IMG/VR virus record: IMGVR_UViG_3300023180_000211
Coordinates: 1-33,118 of that record
Direction: 5' to 3' (one strand)
DNA from: a virus
Length of the DNA: 33,118 bases
The translations under genes and the position numbers were made by a program. Below the pieces are notes generated by a model. That model was given only the letters and a program-made list of their open reading frames with translations. It searched no databases and was not told where the DNA came from. The number at the start of each line of letters is the position of its first letter. Within the stretch, counting starts at the first letter, position 1. Shown in pieces: positions 14,313-20,405 of this stretch.

Positions 14313-14721
14313 AAAGACTGGTCGCCCGGTCAAATATACAAAGACTTTAATCGACCAAGTATTTACCCTGATTAGTCAAGGAATAAATCCTACTGAGGCA
14401 GTGAAAAAATGTAAGTTGACCTGGAGTAATTTCTATAATCACGTCTTTAACGATGACAAAATGAAGTTGGCATACGAACAAGCCAAACACGCTGGAGCTG
14501 ATTTTAAAGTTTCCGAATATCATCAACTATTAGAGGATTTACAAAATTCTGTTAAAGAAGATAGAAAACTGAATATGTCCACAATCAAGGGCCTTGAGAT
14601 TTTACAAAAACAATTACATTGGTACGCTGGTAAAGCTGCAGCAACACATTACGGATCAGATAAAGAAAGAATTACTTTGACTTCAGGTGATCAGAGTTTC
14701 TCGATTGAGTGGTCTAAATAG
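14281..14721 (+). CDS. terminase small subunit
   Basis: 146 residues. The N-terminal 'GRPVKYTKTLIDQVFTLISQGINPTEAVKKCKLTWSNFYNHV' is the helix-turn-helix DNA-binding part of phage small terminases. The middle, 'YEQAKHAGADFKVSEYHQLLEDL', is the helical oligomerisation part. The tail, 'LHWYAGKAAATHYGSDKERITLTSGDQ', is the usual end of this family. It recognises the packaging site and hands DNA to the large subunit, which here lies 4.4 kb away rather than adjacent. A repeat array that may contain its binding site begins at its stop codon. Confidence 0.85.
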   Translation: MSTKSTLPSTKKTGRPVKYTKTLIDQVFTLISQGINPTEAVKKCKLTWSNFYNHVFNDDKMKLAYEQAKHAGADFKVSEYHQLLEDLQNSVKEDRKLNMSTIKGLEILQKQLHWYAGKAAATHYGSDKERITLTSGDQSFSIEWSK

Positions 14722-14960
14722 TTTTTGAGAATTACCTGGATAAATCCAAATCACTTTTGAAAATTGCCTAAAAAAATTCAAATTGTTTTTGAGAATTAGG
14801 TTAAAAAATCCAAATAGTTTTTGAGAATTGGGTGTAAAAATCCAAACTAAATTTAAAATTTAGGTTGAAAAATCCTTTTTATAGGTCAAATAATCCTTGA
14901 AAATTGGTTGTTGAAATTCAAACAGATTTTAAAAAATACTTTGAAAAAACCAATCCAAAG
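14722..14960. repeat. array of about 32-bp imperfect repeats (iteron-like)
   Basis: Starting one base after the small-terminase stop, a unit of 31-34 bases recurs: TTTTTGAGAATT, then about four variable bases, then AAAAATCCAAA. Best copies: 14722-14754, 14755-14785, 14786-14817 and 14818-14850. More degenerate copies follow at about 14852-14880, 14881-14896 (half), 14897-14925 and 14926-14960. Each copy is itself a weak dyad (TTTG ... CAAA). There are no spacers, so this is not a CRISPR array. No gene lies here. It could be a packaging site, an origin, or a protein-binding centromere-like array. Confidence 0.75.
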
Positions 14961-15021: not shown

Positions 15022-15255
15022 TTAGACAACAAAATTGTACTTATGAAAGGCACAAAATCCAATTACCTTATAAAGGGTATTTTCTTCGATTAAATGTTCA
15101 ACAATTTCGATTTTATTTTCATGTACATAAATAAAGTCATCATTTGCACCAAAAACAACTAAATCACAATTTACCCCTTGAGTGGTACATTGCCCAAATT
15201 GTTTTCCAAGATAACTAATTAAAAATGCATCATTACAATAATTGTTTTTTTTCAT
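15022..15255 (-). CDS. small hypothetical protein of leftward cassette (77 aa)
   Basis: Start chosen at 15255: it follows the upstream stop by one base and has AAAGG eight bases before ATG. A longer frame to 15357 would overlap the upstream gene by 100 bases. The 77-residue product begins MKKNNYCNDAFLISYLGKQF and has four Cys and a beta-rich, aromatic C-terminus (YKVIGFCAFHKYNFVV). I do not recognise a family. It is the last gene of the cassette. Confidence 0.55.
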   Translation of the reverse strand: MKKNNYCNDAFLISYLGKQFGQCTTQGVNCDLVVFGANDDFIYVHENKIEIVEHLIEENTLYKVIGFCAFHKYNFVV

Positions 15256-15256
15256 T

Positions 15257-15451
15257 TTATAAACCTTTCCCATTGGGTTTATGTTCCACTTTTTCCCAAA
15301 GATAAATAAATCTTTGTAACCATTTAATTTTTGATTTATTACCTTCATAATCATCAATTAAATCATAATGTAATTCTTCGGCACAACCATATGGAAGATT
15401 ATTTTTTTCAATCCAATTAGTATAAACCTTTGTTAATAAGTTAATTGTCAT
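15257..15451 (-). CDS. small helical cassette protein (64 aa)
   Basis: Start at 15451, with a perfect AAGGAGG nine bases upstream; the upstream ATG at 15490 lacks one. The product contains 'WIEKNNLPYGCAEELHYDL' and ends 'SKIKWLQRFIYLWEKVE', a layout (W..N.LPY.SA.EL......WL..F...WE) that I associate with short accessory proteins spread over plasmids and phages, without known function. It overlaps the upstream gene by 11 bases. Confidence 0.6.
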   Translation of the reverse strand: MTINLLTKVYTNWIEKNNLPYGCAEELHYDLIDDYEGNKSKIKWLQRFIYLWEKVEHKPNGKGL

Positions 15452-15749
15452 TGTTTTGATCCTCCTTTTCATACCAACAGATAAAACCACCTAAATAAAA
15501 ATATTTAGTATCATTTATTAAAATGGGGTTTTGTCCGATTTCAATTAAACTTTGGATAAAGTCCAAGTTTTCGAAATAGTAAGGGTTTTCGATTTGCCAT
15601 TTTAACTGTTGGTTAAGATATTTTTTAAAATTATCTTCTGTTAAATATGGATTTGACCAACCATTCCAAAATTGATTGTTTTGATCAATAAGGCAAGGAA
15701 GATTGAAACCGAGTCCCTCGGTTGTCACAGTTTTATTTATATAGTTCAT
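15441..15749 (-). CDS. small cassette protein (102 aa)
   Basis: 102 residues, rich in Asn, Tyr, Phe and Trp. It includes FNLPCLIDQNNQFWNGWSNP and ends LGGFICWYEKEDQ. The ribosome binding site region AGAAAGAAGG is identical to that of the gene starting at 16457, and each is preceded by a hairpin with a UUUAA loop. The protein looks small, soluble and beta-rich; I do not know its function. Base composition is more AT-rich than in the late genes. Confidence 0.6.
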   Translation of the reverse strand: MNYINKTVTTEGLGFNLPCLIDQNNQFWNGWSNPYLTEDNFKKYLNQQLKWQIENPYYFENLDFIQSLIEIGQNPILINDTKYFYLGGFICWYEKEDQNNDN

Positions 15750-15765
15750 TTAGTCCTTCTTTCTA

Positions 15766-15780
15766 CTAGATTAAATCTAG
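15766..15780 (-). promoter_or_regulatory. leader hairpin with UUUAA loop, copy A
   Basis: Leftward RNA: CUAGA, loop UUUAA, UCUAG. It sits directly before AGAAAGAAGG, the ribosome binding region of the gene starting at 15749. A sister hairpin with the same loop but different stem bases stands in the same place before the gene starting at 16457. Confidence 0.65.
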
Positions 15781-15783
15781 TCC

Positions 15784-15805
15784 TAAACCCTATGAAAAGG
15801 GTTTA
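15784..15805 (-). terminator. hairpin between cassette genes, copy A
   Basis: Stem TAAACCC (15784-15790) with GGGTTTA (15799-15805), eight-base loop. It lies after the stop of the 48-residue gene and three bases from the UUUAA hairpin. No U-run follows, so it is probably a processing or pausing structure more than a true terminator. Confidence 0.45.
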
Positions 15806-15814
15806 AGAATAAAT

Positions 15815-15961
15815 TTAATTTTTAGTAAGTTCTTTTAATTCTTCCCAATCTTTTTCAGTAAAGAGTTGAGAAGAACCATCAAGAAAAGTTATTTTATGAT
15901 AATAGTTTTTATTACCATTATATAAGACATAAAAATGTTCAATCTTTTTAAAAGTTAACAT
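15815..15961 (-). CDS. small cassette protein (48 aa)
   Basis: A 48-residue leftward frame with GGAG six bases before ATG 15961. The sequence, MLTFKKIEHFYVLYNGNKNY then YHKITFLDGSSQLFTEKDW, looks like a small beta-sheet protein with a helical tail (EELKELTKN). Its start overlaps the end of the upstream gene by seven bases. No family recognised. Confidence 0.55.
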   Translation of the reverse strand: MLTFKKIEHFYVLYNGNKNYYHKITFLDGSSQLFTEKDWEELKELTKN

Positions 15962-16110
15962 TTTCCACTCCATTCAATTTCAGATTGATATTTTTTTCGT
16001 AAATTTAAAACATAACTTTTCATGTGTTTAATATTATTCCAAATTTGACAATAATATTCTGCAATTTCTTGATCCGTCATGTAATAAATTGATTTTTTCC
16101 ACTCGATCAT
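15955..16110 (-). CDS. small cassette protein (51 aa)
   Basis: A 51-residue leftward frame with AAGGAG eight bases before ATG 16110. It begins MIEWKKSIYYMTDQEIAEYY and continues with a basic helical part (KHMKSYVLNLRKKYQSEIEW). It overlaps the next gene. Good ribosome binding site and coupling support it; function unknown. Confidence 0.55.
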   Translation of the reverse strand: MIEWKKSIYYMTDQEIAEYYCQIWNNIKHMKSYVLNLRKKYQSEIEWSGKC

Positions 16111-16112
16111 TT

Positions 16113-16196
16113 TTATTTACTCCTTTTAATTAATTGATAACTAATAAAACAAAAAATCATTAGTTGGATTAAATCCAATCCGTCTAAACCTTGCAT
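16113..16196 (-). CDS. possible 27-residue membrane peptide
   Basis: The frame starts one base past the stop of the 86-residue gene (TAAATG) and ends three bases before the next start. The peptide has a hydrophobic core (LIQLMIFCFISYQLI) and a basic tail (KRSK), which would make a small transmembrane peptide. It contains hairpin copy C. It has no ribosome binding site of its own, so coupling or chance are both possible. Confidence 0.35.
   Translation of the reverse strand: MQGLDGLDLIQLMIFCFISYQLIKRSK
16164..16178 (-). promoter_or_regulatory. hairpin with UUUAA loop, copy C
   Basis: Leftward RNA: UUGGA, loop UUUAA, UCCAA, followed by CUAAUGAUUUUUUG. The stem differs from copies A and B while pairing is kept. 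The U-run after it could make this a terminator, or it may be an eroded leader hairpin. Confidence 0.5.
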
Positions 16197-16457
16197 TTAG
16201 TATTCACCTCCAAAGTCCTTAACTTCTCTTTGTTTACAATTTGGAATTTTTACAAATCTAATTGGTAGATCAGAATTGAAACCCTTTAAATTTAAAAACT
16301 CTTTTGCAACATATTCACTATGTGTTCCGTAACCATATTGAAAAGGAATTTTTTTAATTGTTCCATTTTCTAAGTTTTCTATTTGAGATGCAAAATAAGT
16401 ATTTCCGTTTATTTTGTCTCTCCATTCTTTTGTAGTCACTAAATATTTAATATTCAT
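16197..16457 (-). CDS. small cassette protein (86 aa)
   Basis: 86 residues. 'WRDKINGNTYFASQIENLENG' and 'KKIPFQYGYGTHSEYVAKEFL' match a short-protein type I know from plasmids and phages (W.DK.NGNTYxSxxI...G....PFQYGYGxxYxxxA...L). No function is established that I know of. Its leader carries hairpin copy B and AGAAAGAAGG as ribosome binding region. Confidence 0.65.
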   Translation of the reverse strand: MNIKYLVTTKEWRDKINGNTYFASQIENLENGTIKKIPFQYGYGTHSEYVAKEFLNLKGFNSDLPIRFVKIPNCKQREVKDFGGEY

Positions 16458-16472
16458 TAGTACCTTCTTTCT

Positions 16473-16489
16473 CTTAGGTTAAACCTAAG
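16473..16489 (-). promoter_or_regulatory. leader hairpin with UUUAA loop, copy B
   Basis: Leftward RNA: CUUAGG, loop UUUAA, CCUAAG, directly followed by AGAAAGAAGG and the ATG at 16457. Compared with copy A, stem bases change on both sides together, so pairing is maintained. Confidence 0.65.
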
Positions 16490-16490
16490 T

Positions 16491-16514
16491 GAAAACCCCA
16501 AAAAAGAGGTTTTC
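16491..16514 (-). terminator. hairpin between cassette genes, copy B
   Basis: Stem GAAAACC (16491-16497) with GGTTTTC (16508-16514), ten-base loop, one base from the UUUAA hairpin. It lies just past the stop of the 187-residue gene at 16527. Same position and order as the 15784 hairpin. Confidence 0.45.
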
Positions 16515-16526
16515 ATTTAAGTTTAA

Positions 16527-17090
16527 TTAATGTCCGTAAATAGGATCGGTTTGGTGTAGTGGTTTGCCATCCCATTTAGAACCATAGGCATAAGAATAGA
16601 TTTTAACTCGGTTATCTCTTCCGACTCTTTTTGTTTTTTCTTTTCCTATGATTTGATTAGTTGGAACTACTTTATCTCCATATACTCCATTTTGTTCCGT
16701 AAATGATTGTCTAACTTTGGCAATTTTAATTGTTTGATCACTTACAACTTCAACAACCTTGAAGAAATCAACATTAGTTTGATCATATCCCCACATACAA
16801 TCTATAAAGTCTCCGACTTGATAAGTGTGGGGTTGTTTTCTCTCTTCCTTTCTATTAATGACGTTTTGTTTGTGTTCGATCCTATTTTTAATGGTCTCTT
16901 CTATTTTTGCCATCATTTGATCTATGTTTCTAAATCGATAATGCCAAATAGGTTTTTTAGTTTTATCAGAATGACACATTGCAACCAATTTATTTTGATC
17001 ACCATAAAATTTAAGATCATTCAATTTAGAATTAACTAAATCACTTGTTTCAAGTAATTCGTAGTTATTAGGTATTAATTGTTTATTCAT
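16527..17090 (-). CDS. cassette protein with 'GYDQTNVDFFxV' domain (187 aa)
   Basis: Start at 17090, with AAGGAG ten bases upstream; a longer frame to 17144 starts inside a hydrophobic, non-conserved stretch. The C-terminal 100 residues, 'YQVGDFIDCMWGYDQTNVDFFKVVEVVSD' onward, match a small beta domain I know from accessory proteins of plasmids, ICEs and phages. The N-terminal part (WHYRFRNIDQMMAKIEETI) is helical with a basic linker. Relatives often lie near anti-restriction genes, but no function is established. It is the first gene of the leftward cassette. Confidence 0.6.
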   Translation of the reverse strand: MNKQLIPNNYELLETSDLVNSKLNDLKFYGDQNKLVAMCHSDKTKKPIWHYRFRNIDQMMAKIEETIKNRIEHKQNVINRKEERKQPHTYQVGDFIDCMWGYDQTNVDFFKVVEVVSDQTIKIAKVRQSFTEQNGVYGDKVVPTNQIIGKEKTKRVGRDNRVKIYSYAYGSKWDGKPLHQTDPIYGH

Positions 17091-17108
17091 TTTTCTTAGT
17101 CTCCTTAT

Positions 17109-17135
17109 TTTTGTTAATGGTTTAAAATAACAAAA
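17109..17135 (-). promoter_or_regulatory. leader hairpin before the first cassette gene
   Basis: Stem TTTTGTTA (17109-17116) with TAACAAAA (17128-17135), 11-base loop that in leftward RNA begins UUUUAAACC. It precedes AAGGAG of the gene starting at 17090. The stem differs from the UUUAA hairpins, but location and loop start are alike. Confidence 0.45.
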
Positions 17136-17682
17136 TAATAACAAAAGTTAAACAAAATAATTAATTGATTTAATGGATTTATTTGCCGATTTCGTGGGGG
17201 TTTTTTCTTCTATTAGAGACTAAATAAGAATAAATAAGGGGTAGTTTCTTCCATTCCAAATATTACTAAATTAGATATAAAAGAACTATAAAGAGATATA
17301 ATAAAGAACTAAATATAGATAAATATGGATATAAATACTATATCTAGGTTTTAATCCTTCATTCTATTGTTGTTGATAATATTGGGTTATATTTAGAGTG
17401 TTACGAGAAACAACTATTTAGACACAATTATTCTATAGAAATTTACTATTTTTATAAAAATATATTGAAAATAGGGGGGTTCTTTCGTTTGATTCCTCTA
17501 AGATATATTATGCAACAATATAATATCTCCCCTACCCTACTGAACTATTGTTGATTATCAATGCCCACCCCCCTGGCCTTTCACGTTAACGTCAACTAAC
17601 ACACTTCAACACAGTAGTAATTCTCTACGGGTTTTGCTAATATATAGCTGTATGAGCTTTAAAATGGATTTTTGGGGGTATT
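17136..17682. promoter_or_regulatory. AT-rich divergent region, likely promoters or origin
   Basis: About 550 bases without a supported gene, between the leftward cassette and rightward genes. Visible structure: a direct repeat of GATATAA(T)AAAGAACTA at about 17274-17315; an imperfect inverted repeat AGATAT...ATATCT (17501-17506, 17523-17528) around a TATAAT; TTGATTATCAA palindrome (17551-17561); ACGTTAACGT palindrome (17583-17592); and G-runs at about 17200 and 17475 and a C-run at about 17570. An origin or a dense promoter/operator region would look like this; neither is proven. Confidence 0.5.
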
Positions 17683-17901
17683 TTGAAGAGATATAACAGT
17701 CACCAGGTCTTTAACTGGAATCACGAAGAACAAATTAAGTATCGAAGGTGTTATATTTGCGATAAATATGGTAGTTTTGGTATAAACGATAAAGGAGCAT
17801 ACTATTTTGTATGTGGAAAACATTATGGCAAAGAAAACAACAAAGAAAACAAGAAAACAGACAAGAAAAGAAGCATCGGATCTAATTACGAGTTATTATG
17901 A
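17683..17901 (+). CDS. small zinc-finger-like protein, TTG start
   Basis: 72 residues. No ATG is available in frame; TTG 17683 follows GGGGG at a plausible distance. The sequence has RRCYICDKYGSF ... YYFVCGKHYGK, i.e. CxxC then CxxH about 17 residues on, a treble-clef or zinc-ribbon pattern as in HNH relatives, but with no catalytic HN pair. The C-terminal 20 residues overlap the next gene and look unconstrained. DNA or RNA binding is possible. Confidence 0.5.
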   Translation: MKRYNSHQVFNWNHEEQIKYRRCYICDKYGSFGINDKGAYYFVCGKHYGKENNKENKKTDKKRSIGSNYELL

Positions 17902-19225: not shown

Positions 19226-20405
19226 TGTTTTAGTTTGTCACCGAAGATTCGGCAAGACAGTCCTTACAGTTAACGAAATTATCAAGAAGTGTTTACAGAA
19301 TACACTTCCTAGACCTCGTTATTATTACATAGCTCCTACTTACAGTATGGCTAAAAGAATCGCTTGGGACTATCTCAAGTATTATACTTCAGTGCTGCCA
19401 AACATGGAGTATCACGAAACAGAACTAAGAGCTGACTTCCCTAATGGGGGAAGAATCCAATTACTCGGTTGTGAAAGACCAAACACCTTGAAAGGACTTT
19501 ACATTGATGGTGTTATACTAGACGAGGTTGCACAAATGCCTCCGAAGATTTGGACTGAAGTGATTAGACCTGCTTTATCAGACCGAGAAGGGTGGATGAT
19601 TGCGATTGGAACTCCAACCGGGCATAATGCCTTTTATAATTTATACGATCATGGAAAACATACCGAAGGGTGGTTCACAGGATTGTATAAGGCTTCCGAG
19701 ACAAAGATTATTAAAGAATTAGAATTAGAAGAAGCAAAAAAAATGATGCCTCCTGAAATATACGAGGCAGAATATGAATGTAGTTTTGAATCTAATGCTA
19801 TAGGAGCTATTTACTCTCAAGGATTAGGAAAATGTGATGATGAAGGTAGAGTAACCAAGATTCCGTATGATAGCACTATACCTGTTGATACTTTTTGGGA
19901 CTTGGGGATGGCTGATAAAACATCGATTTGGTTCGTTCAACAAAAAGGCCATGCGATACACGTTATTGACTACTTTGAGGACTCGGGAGAAAGTCTAGAA
20001 TATTATGCAACAATCCTTAGAGATAGGGGTTATAACTACGATACTCACTACTTCCCTCACGATGCCTCTGTTAGAGAACTCGGAACAGGTAAATCAAGAT
20101 TAGAGATAGCTCAATCACTCGGACTGACCACCTCTGTTGTACCGAAAATGTCGGTAGATGACGGAATTAACGCGGTACGTATGATATTATCTAGATGTTA
20201 CTTTAATTACGAAACAACAAAAGATGGATTAGATGCCTTGAGACAATATCGATGGGCAACAAACGATAAAGGAGAAACCAAGAACAGACCACAACACGAT
20301 TGGACATCTCACGCAGCAGATGCTTTTCGTTATATGGCAGTCGGTTTAAACGAAACAAAACAATGGAGCAGAAAGATCGAGTATAACCAAATAGGAATTG
20401 TATAA
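19152..20405 (+). CDS. terminase large subunit
   Basis: 417 residues. ATPase part: Walker A CHRRFGKT (29-36) and Walker B VILDEV (Asp124, Glu125), followed by IGTPTGHNAF (coupling motif). Nuclease part: FWDLGMAD (Asp250, Asp255), FPHDAS (about 301-306) and the late AADAFRYMA with an acidic residue. It pumps DNA into the capsid and cuts it. It starts inside the methyltransferase gene (74-base overlap) and its stop overlaps the portal start as TAATG. Confidence 0.93.
   Translation: MKKIVIPYKPRELQQEIHKGLKRFNVLVCHRRFGKTVLTVNEIIKKCLQNTLPRPRYYYIAPTYSMAKRIAWDYLKYYTSVLPNMEYHETELRADFPNGGRIQLLGCERPNTLKGLYIDGVILDEVAQMPPKIWTEVIRPALSDREGWMIAIGTPTGHNAFYNLYDHGKHTEGWFTGLYKASETKIIKELELEEAKKMMPPEIYEAEYECSFESNAIGAIYSQGLGKCDDEGRVTKIPYDSTIPVDTFWDLGMADKTSIWFVQQKGHAIHVIDYFEDSGESLEYYATILRDRGYNYDTHYFPHDASVRELGTGKSRLEIAQSLGLTTSVVPKMSVDDGINAVRMILSRCYFNYETTKDGLDALRQYRWATNDKGETKNRPQHDWTSHAADAFRYMAVGLNETKQWSRKIEYNQIGIV

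Follow-up and report, generated by a model that had tools for sequence, protein, structure and literature searches.

The DNA analysed here, referred to below as the window, comprises all 33,118 bases of a virus record. Its terminase was found to be 47-49% identical to those of HTVC010P-kind pelagiphages and of the Methylophilales phage Venkman, and its portal protein is of the SU10 kind; a search of genome contigs with the portal protein, in which a prophage or host was looked for, found none. The accessory array under study is read leftward (minus strand) and contains a 187-aa gene at 16527..17090 (phrog_37844) followed by an 86-aa gene at 16197..16457 (phrog_6246), both with no assigned function, and then a 52-aa gene at 15815..15973, a 102-aa gene at 15441..15749 (a weak phrog_9945 assignment) and, next after it, a 64-aa gene at 15257..15451 (phrog_9962). 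A defence function was sought among the cassette proteins and nothing convincing was found (the best match was KwaB, E 0.035).

Two leaders in this array are copies of an element of about 75 bases that extends from the stop codon of the upstream gene to the ribosome-binding site of the next gene. Leader A (16463..16530, minus strand; R1, 84 bits; R2, 79 bits) separates the 17090 gene from the 16457 gene, and leader B (15755..15822, minus strand; R1, 94 bits; R2, 79 bits) separates the 15973 gene from the 15749 gene; the two split the array into the gene groups 17090, 16457-15973 and 15749-15255. Aligned without gaps (16530-16457 and 15822-15749, minus strand), they are identical at 48 of 74 positions.

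Each leader contains three strands, S1, S2 and S3, all on the minus strand. At the base of leader A is the stop codon TAA of the upstream gene (16527..16529), followed by S1 (16506..16526, the lower arm and the apical 5′ arm), S2 (16479..16499) and S3 (16478-16473). The alternative hairpin S2:S3 (CUUAGG-UUUAA-CCUAAG) occupies 16473..16489, the C at 16489 does not pair with its S1 counterpart in the long form, and the Shine-Dalgarno (SD) box AGAAAGAAGG (16463..16472) is directly 3′ of S3. In leader B, the stop codon TAA (15815..15817) is base-paired at the bottom of the long helix, S1 is at 15798..15819, S2 at 15770..15791 (with the C at 15780 mismatched in the long form), S3 at 15770-15765, the alternative hairpin (ACUAGA-UUUAA-UCUAGU) at 15765..15781 and the SD box AGAAAGAAGG at 15755..15764. 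This box occurs exactly twice in the window, both times in these leaders, and the order that a preliminary description had reported for the leaders of the 16457 and 15749 genes (a hairpin, a hairpin with the loop UUUAA, AGAAAGAAGG and the start codon) was found to be exact.

Some other features of the region were observed. About 600 bases of noncoding, AT-rich DNA (17100-17700) precede the leftward array and contain a 23-bp direct repeat and several minus-strand runs of four to six C, with A-rich sequence before each; the promoter of the array is likely to be here. Between convergent genes with ends near 14721 and 15022 are four imperfect 32-bp copies in tandem with a TTTTTGAGAATT core (14713-14900), possibly a terminator or a binding array. 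A 27-codon open reading frame at 16113-16196 (minus strand), MQGLDGLDLIQLMIFCFISYQLIKRSK, belongs to a family of small membrane peptides (GLNGLDLILL...), and members of this family are themselves found behind a leader in L190, L182, L208, L179 and L181.

Predicted folds of the two leaders

Compared with dinucleotide shuffles, leaders A and B gave fold z-scores of -4.2 and -4.0, and both are within the top five 60-nt folds of the 33-kb window on either strand. Two hairpins in tandem had been described for each leader. The hairpin with the UUUAA loop can indeed form, but the minimum-energy fold is a single long hairpin with a 6-nt loop, its helix interrupted by a 1x1 mismatch between segments of 9-10 bp and 10-11 bp. 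This long helix, S1:S2, of about 20 bp and about -22 kcal/mol, is the predicted ground state; its register is identical in leaders A and B and matches two inverted repeats. The S2:S3 hairpin reuses one strand of the long helix, and is therefore an alternative partner of its lower half. Across leaders, the long form was favoured over the alternative by an average of 3.6 kcal/mol (range -8.4 to +0.5).

Further copies that had been proposed did not behave in this way and do not belong to the family. The supposed third copy at 16164 is inside coding sequence (GLDLIQ of a small membrane peptide); it lacks an SD box, folds in an ordinary way (z -0.9), and none of the homologues keeps its palindrome, the motif being encoded there by other codons. 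The hairpin before the 17090 gene, described as a fourth, had a z-score of -0.4 and was unmatched by either of the covariance models described below.

Three other identities of the leaders were considered and rejected. An intrinsic terminator was rejected because a U-tract is missing 3′ of the leader hairpin; a terminator was flagged on leader A alone, caused by T's within its own stem, and in the homologous leaders S3 and AGAAAG come after the hairpin. A promoter was rejected because the region has no more promoter-like sites than chance would give (20 found vs 21.4 expected), with none listed within leader A or B. A DNA-binding operator was rejected on account of at least a dozen different half-sites.

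Recurrence, conserved pairing and gene shuffling

A terminase search gathered 80 contigs as relatives of the window, and blast of the cassette against them showed leaders conserved between differing genes. A first covariance model was built from five leaders using the S1:S2 helix alone, with the S2:S3 pairs left out. It found 34 minus-strand matches with E-values no higher than 0.015. All are on the strand of the accessory array, and phages with sufficient coverage almost always have two. An apical-hairpin pattern was used to reach further phages, namely L340 (three copies; terminase 69% to HTVC033P, of the HMO-2011 kind), L283 (two copies; helicase 39% to HTVC033P), L244 (two copies; terminase 57-61% to HTVC023P, HTVC027P and 023Pt_psg01), L342 and L330. 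The phages found by this pattern had no detectable similarity to the window terminase or major capsid protein in a search run without a positive control. A second covariance model, R2, raised the number of homologues to at least 55, and a further 36.5-kb phage with three copies (L386, L385) was reached from a downstream gene family. Homologues are present both in relatives and in unrelated groups (HMO-2011-like, HTVC023P-like and others), oriented like the gene that follows them; in any whole contig, the matches are restricted to one place, with one to three copies. The E-values in other phages went down to 1e-13, with the S2:S3 pairs absent from the model.

A literal search of viral contigs for TTTAAN6AGAAAGAAGG gave 120 matches, none of which outside the window had a stem of 5 bp or more, which indicates that the sequence is not the conserved part. 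Among the 4227 families of Rfam 15, which include cis-regulatory leaders that these resemble in general terms, none matched in the window at gathering thresholds; the best sub-threshold match was to an unrelated snoRNA (E 0.14). The leaders are a real RNA family that is apparently undescribed. No significant copy was found in 13 isolate genomes, and blastn for a leader-like match in isolate DNA gave nothing. A weak match (E 0.07) was seen at record position 19226 of Pelagibacter phage HTVC027P (L362), which has a stop codon, an imperfect hairpin, AGAAAGG and ATG, and no S3 strand; it may be a simpler relative of the element in an isolated phage.

Forty leaders, 32 of them distinct, were inspected individually. 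The S2:S3 stem was found to pair at 6/6 positions in 39 of the 40 and at 5/6 in the remaining one. The stem occurs in a dozen or more sequence variants, AG(A/G)A follows it immediately, and further credible matches likewise keep this pairing. The long helix is retained throughout the 40, with one conserved 1x1 mismatch in nearly all (C-A, C-U or G-G), located at base 1 or 2 of the S2:S3 stem. The S2:S3 loops vary (UUUAA, CUUAUA, GUUAU, UCUAU, UAUUUAG, UCUAAG and others), because the loop pairs with the S1 strand; a constant loop serving as the binding site of a single regulator, as had been proposed, is not supported.

Covariation was evaluated on a three-strand structural alignment with a tree and 120 null alignments, in which the inferred substitutions were moved between columns along the tree. 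This test was home-made and not R-scape, with the S1 register set by maximal pairing in each sequence and S3 anchored by the box. The ten highest of 1275 column pairs were all S1:S2, S2:S3 or S1:S3, and several tested pairs were at E <= 1e-3. A single S2 base covaries with both its S1 and its S3 partner, as competing helices would predict. These comparisons support the interpretation that the leader stems are a selected RNA structure, as had been proposed from the compensatory changes between the window copies, and the suggested covariance-model search did find the element before accessory genes in other phages.

Many apical hairpins (in L159, L157, L176, L160, L190 and others) were seen to have the form GCUCUUU...AGGGC, with a U-G pair kept. 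The apical CUCUUU, which is absent from the window copies, is boxA-like (antitermination) and complements the AAAGAG in the SD box; a CUCUUU/AAAGAG pseudoknot was judged by eye, and this is biased, as some of the loci had themselves been found with the CUCUUU pattern.

The neighbours of the element are shuffled. The 20 upstream and 23 downstream gene families are combined in 28 different pairs, and several flanking families have more than one partner, such that one upstream family may stand before different downstream families and the reverse. Related families adjoin the element in unrelated phages (L171/L283, L283/L244). The leader is kept beside homologues of the 15815..15973 gene that are 62-72% identical (L159, L157, L176), and in L162 and L163 a homologue of the 15257..15451 gene is directly behind it. 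In L175 and L177, the array ends after the 15973-gene homologue and a plain hairpin is found instead of the element, which indicates that the element goes with the downstream gene. Most phages with homologues of a downstream gene lack the element (in 80 contigs, only about ten such homologues have it directly upstream), which makes it a lineage-shared expression part and not a property of the gene.

The preliminary description had named two observations that would speak against its reading, homologous genes without the hairpins and stem changes that break the pairing, and here the outcome was mixed: the stem changes keep pairing, but the element is missing beside most of the distant homologues of the flanked genes (the contigs of distant homologues of the 16457 gene gave no covariance-model match), which indicates that the element is not part of the genes. 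At the level of sequence, the helices, the mismatch, the SD box, the position of the stop codon (described next) and the recurrence with shuffled neighbours in several phage groups can be regarded as established.

The upstream stop codon and a proposed switch

In 33 of 38 leaders, the in-frame stop codon of the upstream reading frame occupies one and the same nucleotide of the structure, at the base of the helix (27 in the exact column, five in a class with two extra base pairs and one offset by one). The upstream genes belong to about 20 unrelated families, of which 16 of 20, by an inferred count, follow the rule. It was also obeyed by 13/13 further leaders with a recognisable upstream reading frame and by the three copies in L385. 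The exceptions are leader A, L330, L340b and L340c, in which the stop is 4-7 nt further upstream (4 nt further out in leader A than in most homologues). The identity of the stop codon covaries with its S2 partner, TAA with UUA and TAG with CUA (S1:S2 offset 7, p 6.5e-6). About 8-9 bases separate the stop from the mismatch, which is about the span that a ribosome with a stop codon in its A site is said to hold open, judging from the position of the ribosomal helicase.

Because the element spans the interval from the stop codon to the SD box and has two mutually exclusive folds, it probably senses whether a ribosome has just completed the upstream gene. We consider the best explanation of the element to be a portable RNA switch between cistrons that is set when a ribosome terminates, with about as much to be said for it as against it. 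S1, S2 and S3 would compete, and with no ribosome at the upstream stop, the hairpin of about 20 bp with its 1x1 mismatch (S1:S2) would form. A terminating ribosome would occupy and open the lower half of S1, roughly to the mismatch, such that a 10-bp apical hairpin remains and the freed S2 pairs with S3 to give a second hairpin abutting the SD box. The S2:S3 state would then promote translation of the downstream gene through coupling (termination or reinitiation): S3 would be held away from the SD region, and the folded spacer of about 65 nt would bring the stop near the SD box. The element would also serve as a homology joint for the exchange of accessory genes.

In computed folds, masking from the stop to offset 2 changed the median probability of S2:S3 from 0.04 to 0.95, and this predicted switch between folds upon ribosome masking agrees with the scheme. 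Together with the small energy gap between the two forms, the shift favours a switch set by upstream termination. The same masking changed the median probability that the SD box is unpaired from 0.71 to 0.86, with a fall in about a quarter of cases. The SD box is mostly unpaired in both predicted states, and the predicted change in output is therefore modest. A more accessible SD box and a folded spacer would argue for translational coupling, but the output proposed for the switch, namely that S2:S3 promotes translation of the downstream gene, is less certain. It also counts against a switch that structure just after the stop codon has been reported to correlate negatively with coupling efficiency (PMC12548453).

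The strongest rival explanation, which we think rather unlikely to be the right one, is a processing site of the kind found in the T7 early region. RNase III would cut the long hairpin near the mismatch; the upstream mRNA would keep the 10-bp hairpin at its 3′ end, the released S2 would refold with S3 at the 5′ terminus before the SD box, and with a hairpin at each new end both products would be protected. In T7, the early-region RNase III sites are irregular hairpins of about 20 bp that lie between a stop codon and an SD box and segment the operon. The likeness is a hairpin of this length with an internal mismatch between genes, cleavage being only hypothetical here. Processing would account for both helices, for the central mismatch of nearly all copies and its place at the 5′ edge of the S2:S3 hairpin, and for the division of the array into gene groups, but it does not require a fixed stop nucleotide across unrelated upstream genes. 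We know of no description of a T7 site in which three strands compete and the stop position is fixed. An RNase as the controller, one of the two candidates named in the preliminary description, is possible.

A further rival explanation is that the element is a recombination linker only, a conserved noncoding joint for accessory-gene exchange with structure as a by-product or a weak terminator. Gene shuffling is clear on both sides, and the related families beside the element in unrelated phages fit such a joint. However, pairing kept through at least a dozen S2:S3 stems is needless for homology, a U-tract is missing after the hairpin, and promoter-like sites are at chance level; we regard this reading as improbable. 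More doubtful still is a reading in line with the single-regulator idea of the preliminary description, in which an RNA-binding protein of the phage or the host would use the hairpin as its operator and repress or protect the mRNA downstream. A hairpin directly at the SD box with an invariant AG(A/G)A adjoining the stem would suit such an operator, whereas only the pairing of the hairpin is conserved, not its stem and loop sequences, and a second structure would not be needed. Chance, or simple AT-rich palindromes derived from one duplicated spacer, could be entertained from the very AT-rich spacers and the two copies in the window, but can be considered already refuted by z-scores of about -4, covariation beyond phylogeny, and E-values to 1e-13 in other phages that retain S2:S3 pairs outside the model.

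With respect to a switch set by termination, coupling by RNA unfolding or translational attenuation has been described for MS2 and f1 gene pairs and for E. coli rpmI-rplT (PMC12548453). As in those cases, a ribosome on the upstream reading frame would alter pairing before the downstream SD box, and the spacing is of similar order to that of rpmI-rplT (+52 nt; PMC12548453). By computation, the leaders show the hallmark of an attenuator, mutually exclusive helices of which one is blocked by a ribosome on the upstream reading frame. In contrast to the known cases, which are individual gene pairs, a conserved RNA family is here reused between many unrelated pairs, the stop codon is inside the helix, and the alternative hairpin abuts the SD box instead of hiding it. 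The PeSL (promoter early stem-loop) elements of T4-like phages (Arbiol 2010, Comeau 2014, as cited in PMC4503421) are described as short intergenic stem-loops that mediate shuffling among small early genes, and the leaders are similar in role, being stem-loops at the shuffling joints of small accessory genes. The leaders differ in that no promoter was found in them and in having alternative pairing at the RNA level and a fixed stop codon.

A bolder version of the proposed switch, which we put forward tentatively as possible but not probable, is a self-contained, horizontally shared "stop-to-start" module that links expression by termination-driven strand exchange, giving a stop context to any upstream gene and an SD box to any downstream gene. 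If this were true, phages could join unrelated genes with coupled translation. The structured RNA family formed by the leaders seems not to have been described before; its carriers are several groups of abundant marine phages that are relatives of the pelagiphage groups, and it is placed before many genes of no assigned function. The fixed stop in a conserved three-strand switch makes a question of long standing testable, namely whether dedicated RNA elements allow terminating ribosomes to control the next gene. The element would serve as a marker for accessory cassettes and as a portable part for joining genes, and it would show how control of expression can survive gene shuffling. The largest gene found behind a leader encodes 248 aa (MKQDQIYTSNDYHEF...; in L190, L188, L182 and L187), and by eye its protein has the look of a ParB/Srx-type domain (IDSIKTFGLVNPIVVDQY).
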